From Microcaldota archaeon (lineage in GTDB: Archaea > Micrarchaeota > Micrarchaeia > Micrarchaeales > CABMGC01): DNA of 42,429 bases. Position 1 is the first letter of the stretch. Each line of letters opens with the position of its first letter. Positions 22,866 through 42,429 of this stretch are shown one piece after another. The position numbers were made by a program, and so were the translations under genes. Below the pieces are notes generated by a model. The model saw only the letters and a program-made list of their open reading frames with translations, was not told where the DNA came from and made no database searches. Where the stretch lies: the NCBI GenBank assembly GCA_021791245.1, contig JAJYWY010000014.1, forward strand, positions 1-42,429, written 5' to 3'.

Positions 22866-24137
22866 TCATGCAAACCAATTATGCAAAATTGAACGTATCC
22901 CCATAAGGAGAACCTGTGAACGGTTCAATAATTTTCCCTTATAGATGATTTTTGCCCTTGTGTGTGCGCCTACACCGTTTATCTCTCCATCAACATTTAT
23001 CTCCCCGCCATAAGATTCTTCGCCAGTTTCTTTGCCAGCGCTTCCGCCGACTTTTATGTTGCCGTTCTTCATATATACACCGGTATAATCGCCAGCGCTT
23101 CCGCCGACTGTGAGGCTGCCGTTCTCCATACGGCTACCAGTATAATGACCCGCGTTTCCGTCGACTTTTATATTTCCGTTTTTCATGCGCCTACCTGTTC
23201 CTTCGCCAGCGCTTCCGCCGACTTTTATGTTGCCGTTCTTCATATATCCACCGGTATAATCGCCAGCGTTTCCGCCGCCTGTAATGCTGCCGTTATCCAT
23301 CTGTTCACCGGTATAATTATTCACATTGCCTACAACCATGATACTACCGCCCATTAGGCACATGCCAGTATAATCGCCTGCATTGTATTGAATCGTTATG
23401 CTACCGTTTTGCATGCAAGAGCCCGTAAAATCTCCCGCGTTTCCGCCGACTGTGAGGCTGCCGTTCTCCATACCGTTACCAGTATTATTGCCCGCGTTGC
23501 CGTGGATTGTGATGCTGCCGGAGTGCATGGAGTAGCCAGTCGCATCGCCAGCGTTGCCATCTACAATTATGCTGCCGCCACGCATGTGTTCGCCAGTATT
23601 ATTGCCCGCGTTTCCGCAGATTGTGATATTACCTCCTTTCATTTCCGAGCCTGTATAATCACCCACATTGCCGTGGATTATTAGATTGCCGCAAGGAAGG
23701 TATAAACCTAGATAATTTACTTTCATACTTGTGAAATCAAGGTTTATTGTGTCTGTTTCTTTGATTATTCTGTTGATCGCAGCAGAGACGAATATACCTA
23801 TAGAATAATTAAAAACTATATTTGCATTTTTATAAGTGCGTTCAATGATTGGAACGAGGAGTTCTATGTCTTTTATTGTATAATCTAATCCCTCAAGCAT
23901 TGCTGACGCGTTGAAAAAGTTGGCATCGATCTTATAGTTAAAATTTCCTAGCACATCGACATTATAGTTAAAATTTATTAGAGTTTTTTCAAATAATTTA
24001 AGCAACATTTTTTCATTTGTTGCATGTGTATTTTTATCATATTCTGTGATATTGAGATTGCCTTCTTCTTCTGGCATCCTTAGCACATTTGCAAGAGGCT
24101 TTAGGTTTTCATCTTCTTTCCGCCTTTGCTGCTCCAT
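22866..24137 (-). CDS. Repeat protein with GXGXG/FwdC-GltB3-like right-handed beta-helix domain
   Basis: About 12 tandem 19-residue units such as GYMKNGNIKVGGSAGEGT / GRRMKNGNIKVDGNAGHYT / GSRMENGSLTVGGSAGDYT after a unique ~135-aa N-terminal region. Confidence 0.85.
   Translation of the reverse strand: MEQQRRKEDENLKPLANVLRMPEEEGNLNITEYDKNTHATNEKMLLKLFEKTLINFNYNVDVLGNFNYKIDANFFNASAMLEGLDYTIKDIELLVPIIERTYKNANIVFNYSIGIFVSAAINRIIKETDTINLDFTSMKVNYLGLYLPCGNLIIHGNVGDYTGSEMKGGNITICGNAGNNTGEHMRGGSIIVDGNAGDATGYSMHSGSITIHGNAGNNTGNGMENGSLTVGGNAGDFTGSCMQNGSITIQYNAGDYTGMCLMGGSIMVVGNVNNYTGEQMDNGSITGGGNAGDYTGGYMKNGNIKVGGSAGEGTGRRMKNGNIKVDGNAGHYTGSRMENGSLTVGGSAGDYTGVYMKNGNIKVGGSAGKETGEESYGGEINVDGEINGVGAHTRAKIIYKGKLLNRSQVLLMGIRSILHNWFA
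22990..23710 (-). repeat. Coding tandem repeats (57-nt period) inside the beta-helix gene
   Basis: Near-identical blocks, e.g. ccgacttttatgttgccgttcttcatatat[a/c]caccggtataatcgccagcg at ~23048 and ~23217. Confidence 0.85.
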
Positions 24138-34553: not shown

Positions 34554-34654
34554 GCTATGCGCAGCAGCCAAAATCTCTACTATTATATCTTTTGTCTTAT
34601 GTTTCTCCATTTACTCAGTCTCCTGGCAAGGCGGCCAACATGCCGATCGTGTTG

Positions 34655-34766
34655 GTTGCTACAGGAGAAACCGATGTTGAATCAGGAAATATACTTGGTG
34701 GTTCAAGATGGCCATTCAAAAGCCGCAATTGGAAGCCCACCGCTTCAGTCGCGAGAAGATATCACT
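34655..34766 (+). mobile_element. Relic 3' end (TnpB C-terminus + right end/omegaRNA-like region) of an IS200/IS605-type element
   Basis: tcaggaaatatacttggtggttcaagatggccattcaaaagccgcaattggaagcccaccgcttcag...gaagatatca aligns with the 40.53-40.61 kb TnpB 3' end gcaggaactatatgtggcggttcaagatgaccaatctaaaacgccactggaagccagcggctttcag...ggaggatgtca. Confidence 0.75.
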
Positions 34767-39602: not shown

Positions 39603-40115
39603 CTAATACTCGATTATTTCCTCTTTCTTTGAAAGGAAGCATTTCAATTTCCCGGAATCTATGTTGCTTTTGATGTGCTTAACATTCTCCTCTTTGTCAT
39701 CGTAGAAATATATCTCTGAATATTCATTAAGCAGGTTCTTCACCACTCCAAGCTTCCAGTCTTCATCCCTTAATCCGTACGACTTCTGGTCTTTCAGTAT
39801 AAGCTTGTCATAGGATATGCCGTGCTTCTTGAGCAGATATTCGGTGTCTTTATATACGATATCGAATCTTGCGGTCAGCACCATAATGTCACCATCATGA
39901 GAAGAGAGCCTTTCTATAAGCTTTTCATTAGGGATGCTGTAATCTTTGTACTTGGTGAAAGCAAGGTTATAGACATCCCCCTTCTCTTTTTTGCCGAGAT
40001 TCCTGATCTCTTTGGTAGTCATGCCTGCCCCGAACTTCTCCGTGCATGCCATCCTTATGCACGATTCCGAAGTGAAGAACAAAGTATCATCAAAGTCAAC
40101 TATTGCGAGTTTCAT
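39603..40115 (-). CDS. HAD-superfamily hydrolase
   Basis: LAIVDFDDTLFFT, MVLTARF, IYFYDDKEENVKHI. Confidence 0.85.
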   Translation of the reverse strand: MKLAIVDFDDTLFFTSESCIRMACTEKFGAGMTTKEIRNLGKKEKGDVYNLAFTKYKDYSIPNEKLIERLSSHDGDIMVLTARFDIVYKDTEYLLKKHGISYDKLILKDQKSYGLRDEDWKLGVVKNLLNEYSEIYFYDDKEENVKHIKSNIDSGKLKCFLSKKEEIIEY

Positions 40116-40189
40116 AAAACCATCCTATTGCATCGCCATCCTGCTGCATCTAAATATAAAGCATATACCATTATTTATAAATTATCGGC

Positions 40190-40612
40190 GGGAAAACCCA
40201 CGGATTTCAATCGTGGGGTGGAAGCGAACGGATAAGATATATAAGACATACAAAACATATAAACATTAACAAAATAATAACTGTGGCCATTGTGAAAACT
40301 GCATACAAATACAGGTTGTATCCTTCAAAGAAACAGAAGGAAATACTTAATCGCCAGATGTTTCTTGCAAAGGAACCCTGCAATACCCCCCCTGAAAAGT
40401 CAAAGCCGCACTATAAAGAAACAGGGAAGGCGCTCACAGAATACAGAATGAATATGCGGCTTGGGAAGCCAAGCCTGTGGAGACGACGCAAGACCTTCCA
40501 TGATGGAGGCTGTTGCCGAAGAAGCAGGAACTATATGTGGCGGTTCAAGATGACCAATCTAAAACGCCACTGGAAGCCAGCGGCTTTCAGCCGTTGGAGG
40601 ATGTCATCAAAT
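40190..40612 (+). mobile_element. Internally deleted TnpB-type IS element (left end, tnpB 5' and 3' fragments, right end)
   Basis: Left-end hairpin cccacg-gatttcaat-cgtggg at 40197..40217; N-terminal TnpB fragment 40283..40453; C-terminal fragment CGDDARPSMMEAVAEEAGTICGGSR* 40476..40553; right-end hairpin ccagcggct-ttc-agccgttgg at 40577..40597. Confidence 0.85.
40283..40553 (+). pseudogene. tnpB: TnpB (IS200/IS605 OrfB) pseudogene, catalytic core deleted
   Basis: MAIVKTAYKYRLYPSKKQKEILNRQMFLAKEPCNTPPEKSKPHYKETGKALTEYRMN is homologous to the copy at 42248, then a frame-breaking junction into the TnpB C-terminal tail. Confidence 0.88.
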
Positions 40613-40673
40613 ACCACCAATCCAGAATGGCAGATGCAAAATAATTGGCAATATAGATGCGTGCAATGATGCT

Positions 40674-41366
40674 ATGGAAATCAGATTGATACTTGTAGAG
40701 CCAAGATACCAGATAAACATAGGCAGCATAGCCAGGGTTGCGAAGAATTTTGGCATAACGAAGCTGCATATAGTGAATCCGAAAGTAAATCTTTTGGGAA
40801 AAAGGGCAATAATGTTCTCGAAGCATGCAAAGGAGCTTCTTGAGCAGCCGGTGCTTTACAAGGATTTCGATTCTGCGATAGGCAAGTGCGATATGGCAAT
40901 AGGAACCACAGGATTGTACAGAAAGGCGAAAGCGGCATTCATGAACGTATTCCTAGCAGAGGAAGTCGCCGAGAAGATTGCAAAGCAATCAGGCAAAGAC
41001 ATAGTGGTTGGCATTGTGATAGGAAGGGATACTATAGGCCTGCTTAGCAGCGAGATCGAGAAATGCGACATGATCGCATACATAGGCGCAAGCAGTTATT
41101 ATCCTGTGCTCAACATCTCGCATGCAACAGGCATACTCCTGTATGAATTCACGAAGCGGATGTATAAGGAGAAATACGGAGATGCGCTAAAGACTCCATC
41201 GAACATGAAGTACAATAAAGTGCTTTTCAGGATATTCTGGAATAGCATAAAAAACAAAAAATCGATAAGGGACAAGAAAGGCGTCCTAAGTACGTTCAAG
41301 AGGATAGTCAATGCTTACCAGCCATCTAAGGAAGAGATAAACGCGATGATAACCGCATTGAAGTGA
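40674..41366 (+). CDS. TrmH/SpoU-superfamily RNA methyltransferase (TrmJ-like)
   Basis: LILVEPRYQINIGSIARVAKNFGI; IVIGRDTIGLLSSEIEKCD; LNISHATGILLYE. Confidence 0.9.
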   Translation: MEIRLILVEPRYQINIGSIARVAKNFGITKLHIVNPKVNLLGKRAIMFSKHAKELLEQPVLYKDFDSAIGKCDMAIGTTGLYRKAKAAFMNVFLAEEVAEKIAKQSGKDIVVGIVIGRDTIGLLSSEIEKCDMIAYIGASSYYPVLNISHATGILLYEFTKRMYKEKYGDALKTPSNMKYNKVLFRIFWNSIKNKKSIRDKKGVLSTFKRIVNAYQPSKEEINAMITALK

Positions 41367-42025: not shown

Positions 42026-42173
42026 TTTATCACAATGTGGTCTTTTACGATTATTATGAATATACAATCGTTTTTATAATCCTTTCTATCAGAAGATTTT
42101 ACGATTCTTCTACAATGCGATGAGGATGCATTCCTGCATTTCACCCAAATTATAAATTCATAGCGTGAAAATT

Positions 42174-42429
42174 CCTATCTTTTAGATAGGAGATGAAGGC
42201 GAATGTGGAAACAAAAAAATATATAACTCTTAATAGTATAATATATATGGCCGTCATGAAAACTGCATATAAGTATCGTGCATATCCTTCAAAGGAACAG
42301 AAGGCAACACTTAATAGGCAGATGCTCCTAGCAAAGGAACTCTACAATCTGCTTCTTGAAAAGTCAAAGGCATACTATAAGGAAACAGGCAAAACCCTGA
42401 CAGAATACAGAATGAATGTCTGGATTACG
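42174..42429 (+). mobile_element. tnpB: 5' part of a second TnpB-type IS element, truncated by window end
   Basis: Left-end hairpin cctatc-tttta-gatagg, gatgaaggcgaatgtgg, then ATGGCCGTCATGAAAACTGCATATAAG... = MAVMKTAYKYRAYPSKEQKATLNRQMLLAKELYNLLLEKSKAYYKETGKTLTEYRMNVWIT. Confidence 0.85.

Follow-up and report, generated by a model that had tools for sequence, protein, structure and literature searches.

Does a tnpB element that has kept both of its ends and lost the core of its nuclease still move, does it serve as a source of guide RNA, or is it a remnant? This question is raised by a locus near the 3' end of the window, by which we mean the whole stretch of 42,429 nucleotides analyzed here. 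The window makes up the whole of C11, one of the 42 contigs of an archaeal draft genome (838,607 bases, 92.6% complete). This genome contains about 25 related pieces and encodes an intact TnpB on contig C33 and an intact TnpA on C38. The element, at 40179-40607, is 429 bp long and derives from a tnpB-type IS200/IS605 element that has lost about 970 bp internally (Table 1). We read it as a non-autonomous, tnpB-only, IS1341-like derivative that arose by one deletion and is now most likely an old, stationary remnant (probability of roughly 0.6). Genome comparisons were made on targeted stretches, and the draft assembly breaks at tnpB repeats.

Table 1. Coordinates of the miniaturized tnpB element, its flanks, and a second copy in the window
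Feature	Position	Strand	Basis or remark
TTAT target site, putative TnpB target-adjacent motif	40175-40178	+	5' of left end
Left end (LE), hairpin CCCACG-GATTTCAAT-CGTGGG at 40197-40217, conserved GGGAAAAC...GAAGCGA frame	40179-40235	+	Sequence
TnpB N-terminal fragment, 60 aa from GTG or 57 aa from VKTAYK	40283-40462	+	Pfam match
Internal deletion junction, reading frame broken	40462-40463	+	Ends and starts of blastn blocks
TnpB C-terminal remnant GSQACGDDARPSMMEAVAEEAGTICGGSR, 29 aa plus stop	40464-40553	+	Overlaps 5' part of omegaRNA
Right end (RE), omegaRNA-like module with three stems	40489-40607	+	RNAalifold, pair counts
Terminal right-end base T (TCAC to TCAT)	40607	+	C in 23/23 other motif-bearing right ends
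Candidate guide (host flank) CAAATACCACCAATCC	40608-40623	+	Position by analogy with ISDra2 reRNA (PMC8612924)
Second tnpB element copy, LE plus 61 aa identical to C33 TnpB	42156-42429	+	Cut by contig end

Both halves of the element match the intact C33 element around one junction, as expected from the original prediction of a miniaturized tnpB element. Window positions 40170-40462 align with the 5' part of the C33 element (71% over 294 nt, E 1e-43) and positions 40463-40606 with its 3' part (74% over 144 nt, E 1e-22), which excludes chance, and blastn comparisons with C33 and other copies place the absence of about 974 bp, relative to C33, at the junction. The left-end hairpin, the TnpB N terminus, the out-of-frame junction, and the C-terminal tail with its stop had all been described correctly, and the two right-end motifs, tggcg...cgcca and ccagcggct-ttc-agccgttgg, are present and fully paired. 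The extent had to be revised. The left end is immediately preceded by TTAT in the full copies and in most of the mini copies read, the exceptions being one on C9 and two decayed copies of a family described below (M2), and host flanks differ 5' of TTAT in all copies compared. Because the left boundary follows TTAT and the right boundary was set across copies, the element begins at 40179, just 3' of TTAT, and ends at about 40607, instead of spanning 40190-40612 as first proposed. Other copies start with AAATTCATAGCGGGAAAAC and end with GGATGTCAC, the corresponding sequences of the window copy being AAATTATCGGCGGGAAAAC and GGATGTCAT. The 3' flanks vary between copies and contain no repeat, which fits insertion 3' of a fixed short target without target duplication. 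Hairpins are subterminal at both ends and terminal inverted repeats are absent, as is characteristic of tnpB-type IS200/IS605 elements. The left-end hairpin and its loop resemble those in G024, G010, and contig C9 of the same genome; folded as single-stranded DNA, the left end forms a 6-bp stem with a z score of only -0.5.

Many contigs of this assembly end within tnpB repeats, and a chimera or collapse fusing two copies could in principle mimic an internal deletion. However, each half differs by about 20 to 29% from every other copy in this genome, which excludes a misjoin of known copies, and the genes on either side are single-copy and lie on the same contig. We therefore regard an assembly artifact as highly improbable. 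The neighbors are, by our own reading of their sequences, probably a HAD-like gene (39603-40115, minus strand) and a TrmJ/SpoU-type methylase gene (40674-41366, plus strand). No right end of this type occurs within 900 bp upstream of any of 29 orthologous methylase loci in relatives, which fits a lineage-specific insertion. The contig search returned only a distant methylase orthologue (48% protein identity) from an archaeal MAG, and no empty site of the same species.

Between the conserved ends there is no functional transposase gene. The N-terminal fragment starts with GTG at 40283, continues with VKTAYKYRLYPSKKQK... from 40292, and reads through to the junction; it matches Pfam HTH_OrfB_IS605 (E 4e-7) and is 68% identical to residues 2-61 of the intact C33 TnpB. 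The C-terminal remnant is 77% identical to residues 383-409 of the same protein and lies in a different frame. As these fragments are all that is left of tnpB or tnpA, the element is classed as a derivative. A translated fusion ORF (128 aa, 40283-40669) was considered and dismissed, its 3' part being out of frame with TnpB. The N-terminal fragment is altered at 9 of 102 otherwise conserved sites (3, 5, and 1 at codon positions 1, 2, and 3, respectively), including radical changes such as KELYNLLLEK to KEPCNTPPEK.

Candidate enzymes acting in trans are encoded elsewhere in the genome. The C33 TnpB is complete, with OrfB_IS605, Cas12f1-like TNB, and HTH domains, a zinc ribbon, and the motifs GIDLG, AYEDLE, and DRDINAS, presumably catalytic as in other members of the family. 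The copy at 42.2 kb in the window, originally offered as an example of an intact TnpB, is truncated by the contig end, so that C33 carries the verified intact copy; the closest matching intact relative found was in the related genome G058, with a 398-aa TnpB. The Y1 TnpA on C38 is likewise intact, with DHVHL (HVH motif) and a C-terminal tyrosine, and its left end has a similar layout, while a further TnpA copy on C8, with DYVHL in this position, is probably dead. The grounds for abandoning the original prediction included a lack of these enzymes in the genome and right-end stem changes without compensation; intact TnpA and TnpB are both present, and the stems vary by compensatory changes.

The right end is the most elaborately structured part of the element. 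From 23 right ends of this genome and related genera, RNAalifold predicted three stems, a 5-bp CCTTC/GGAGG stem, TGGCG/CGCCA (stem 2), and CCAGCGGCT/AGCCGTTGG, with compensatory changes at 9 pairs. In this structure, 89% of the cells were paired versus 76% in shuffles, the covariation score was 0.376 versus 0.149, and the pairing signal collapsed when the structure was slid by 1 to 3 columns. The single-strand fold of the right end gave a z score of -2.3. The window copy pairs every named stem pair, and its stem 2 reads TGGCG/CGCCA where C33 has GGTGG/CCACC. A conserved fold of the tnpB 3' end plus right end, the mark of an omegaRNA gene, is thus found here, and by analogy with known elements it would be compatible both with a terminal hairpin recognized by TnpA and with an omegaRNA scaffold. 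The element had no Rfam match at E of ≤1; RF02656 and RF02657 are haloarchaeal sotRNA families named in PMC12558985. A further right-end subfamily, AACCTCCTATC..GATAGGAGAGGATGTCAG, was observed on C14, C16, C22, C35, and C40 (L110, L113, L116, L120, and L123); its terminal base is G in 5/5, and its stem resembles the left-end stem of C33-type elements. A solo IS605-type right end also occurs within the window (34675-34766), directly abutted by a near-palindromic repeat of about 55 nt, CTCCTGGCAAGGCGGCCAACA.GC.GATCGTGTTGGTTGCTACAGGAGAAACCGA (34620-34674), which recurs on C13 (~297-346) and on C20 (11272-11326; 96% identical to the repeat in the window). Another repeat, at 22966-23706, consists of ten direct copies with a 57-nt period (61 to 78% identical), which would form 19-aa units if coding.

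That the right end is better preserved than the coding part, as had been suggested, holds only as a trend. Up to TCA, none of 60 conserved columns is altered in the right end, and counting the terminal base, 1 of 61 is; set against the 9 of 102 coding sites, the latter figure gives p = 0.09, or p = 0.20 with a narrower reference set. Without the terminal base, the contrast with the N-terminal fragment reaches p = 0.027. We therefore place no weight on this comparison as a test of relaxed selection. Selection for mobility or guide function on this right end is possible, given that no standard pair is lost in the named stems and coding sites have changed. TCAC is the putative TnpA cleavage site, and replacement of its last base by T may impair transposition of the window copy.

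Three families of mini-elements show that loss of the tnpB core need not end mobility in this genome. M1, on C42 (L010 1347-1643) and C41 (48 kb; L015 1347-1644), consists of 297- and 298-bp copies that are 94.6% identical, contain only the left end, the tnpB C-terminal/omegaRNA part, and the right end, and share their junction at unrelated sites; outside TTAT and TCAC their flanks do not match. M2, present on C14 (L019 1369-1698) and at two sites on C20 (L020, minus strand; L021 1375-1704), has one tnpB-deleting junction in copies 82 to 88% identical. It retains the terminal right-end hairpin, with a compensatory G-C to A-T pair in one C20 copy, while in 2 of 3 copies stem 2 is broken and the otherwise conserved AGGAACTATA changed, a pattern that would fit M2 depending on TnpA recognition alone; the window copy has retained both features. 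M3, on C22 (L155 1312-1600) and C27 (L017 1299-1583), is an old pair with a common junction and 71% identity, whose internal junction segment scores 84 versus a maximum of 42.5 in 500 shuffles. In M1 and M3, as in the window element and a single M2 copy, the boundary is immediately preceded by TTAT. Two very short elements resembling the palindrome-associated transposable elements (PATEs) discussed below, with left- and right-end hairpins and no tnpB sequence, were also seen on C2 (L025, 6705-6863, minus strand) and C9 (L022, 14506-14792), the latter directly upstream of a tRNA-like gene.

The multi-copy pattern of PATEs, in which one internal structure recurs at different sites, occurs in M1, M2, and M3, and indicates that gutted elements have been mobilized in trans in this genome. 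Gene conversion among resident elements could also spread a deletion; transposition is favored because flanks change exactly at the ends and the sites differ each time. The mover is inferred to be TnpA. One internal deletion would remove the nuclease core of a TnpB-encoding IS200/IS605-family element, after which Y1 TnpA made elsewhere would recognize the left- and right-end hairpins on single-stranded DNA, excise the element, and insert it 3' of TTAT, making this class of elements passengers.

Mobilization in trans, as originally proposed, thus gains support for the class from the three same-junction families, but not for the window copy. Its junction at 40462/40463 has no second copy in its own genome or in 60 relatives, so that the multi-copy pattern is lacking, and the possibility that it shares its deletion with other mini-elements was ruled out, as every match stops on one side of the junction. 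A functional PATE- or MITE-like element, still mobilized by TnpA and sampled as a sole copy, would agree with the presence of both ends and the TTAT target, with the past movement of its sister families, and with the left-end layout of the C38 TnpA. Nevertheless, we consider it unlikely in view of the unique junction, the changed terminal base, and a left-end tip that has diverged from CATAGCGGG. Another copy with this junction could be missing from an assembly broken by repeats. Taken together, the unique junction, the radical N-terminal changes, and T for C at the right end suggest that the window copy is probably immobile, in keeping with an old remnant.

An immobile copy might still supply a guide RNA, its predicted omegaRNA fold being complete. 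As a standalone guide-RNA locus, it would load its omegaRNA in trans onto an intact TnpB such as that of C33, and the guide, beginning at 40607/40608, would direct cleavage of the empty allele of the site, thereby retaining the element; by analogy, guide and TTAT together would reconstitute the empty donor site. The three fully paired stems, the unchanged columns up to TCA (0 of 60 conserved in the wider set), the TATA-like ATATATAA still present at about 40236-40245, and TTAT on the 5' side of the donor joint are consistent with this. On the other hand, the scaffold is 74% identical to that of C33, whose TnpB would be only a putative partner, the difference in preservation becomes weak when the terminal base is included, and mini-elements need not keep stem 2, as M2 illustrates. 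The search for further guide targets, recommended along with the original prediction, gave no second match to TCAAATACCACCAATCC at ≤2 mismatches in the assembly; at 3 mismatches there were four matches versus 3 for a reversed control pattern, with TTAT 5' of none. Any guide function would accordingly be retention at this site and not regulation of another assembled locus. We judge such a locus to be even less probable than a still mobile element.

It is tempting to speculate that mini-elements parasitize both enzymes in trans, TnpA to move and a resident TnpB with their own omegaRNA and guide to re-invade the donor site. We put this forward as an unlikely reading, of which the window copy would be one locus and M1 the clearest active case. 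M1, the most interesting by-product of this survey, would fit the role of a mobile omegaRNA-only element better than the window copy does. Nuclease-less mini-elements with a guide scaffold allow one to ask whether TnpB also aids elements that are not its own; if so, RNA-guided transposon retention would be exploitable in trans. The genome provides the contrast in itself, with a full scaffold in M1, loss of the omegaRNA-specific stem and retention of the terminal hairpin in M2, and a scaffold joined to an altered transposition end in the window copy.

Among known systems, the intact elements of C33 and G058 resemble the window element in TnpB and omegaRNA stems, and C33 also in the left-end hairpin and TTAT target; they carry the GGATGTCAC right end, whereas about 970 bp of tnpB are absent from the window copy, whose frame is broken and whose last bases are GTCAT. 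A close published precedent are the PATEs of Haloquadratum walsbyi, transposase-free, core-deleted IS605-type derivatives that have palindromes close to their termini, lack terminal inverted repeats, and insert next to short target oligonucleotides (PMC3119063). One of them, HqIRS71, retains part of the tnpB C-terminal coding region, and a core-deleted ISHwa23 was thought to be possibly mobile (PMC3119063). The window element can be placed with them, although it is not multi-copy by itself: it belongs to another archaeal lineage with other sequences, it is single where homogeneous PATEs have many copies, and it also retains a TnpB N-terminal fragment. In ISDra2, the reRNA comprises about 150 nt of the tnpB 3' end and right end followed by a guide of about 16 nt taken from the host flank (PMC8612924). 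The guide RNA layout and the identity of target-adjacent motif and insertion target would be alike in the window element; unlike ISDra2, which has its own intact TnpB and the motif TTGAT, it would depend on a TnpB acting in trans and on a presumed TTAT motif.
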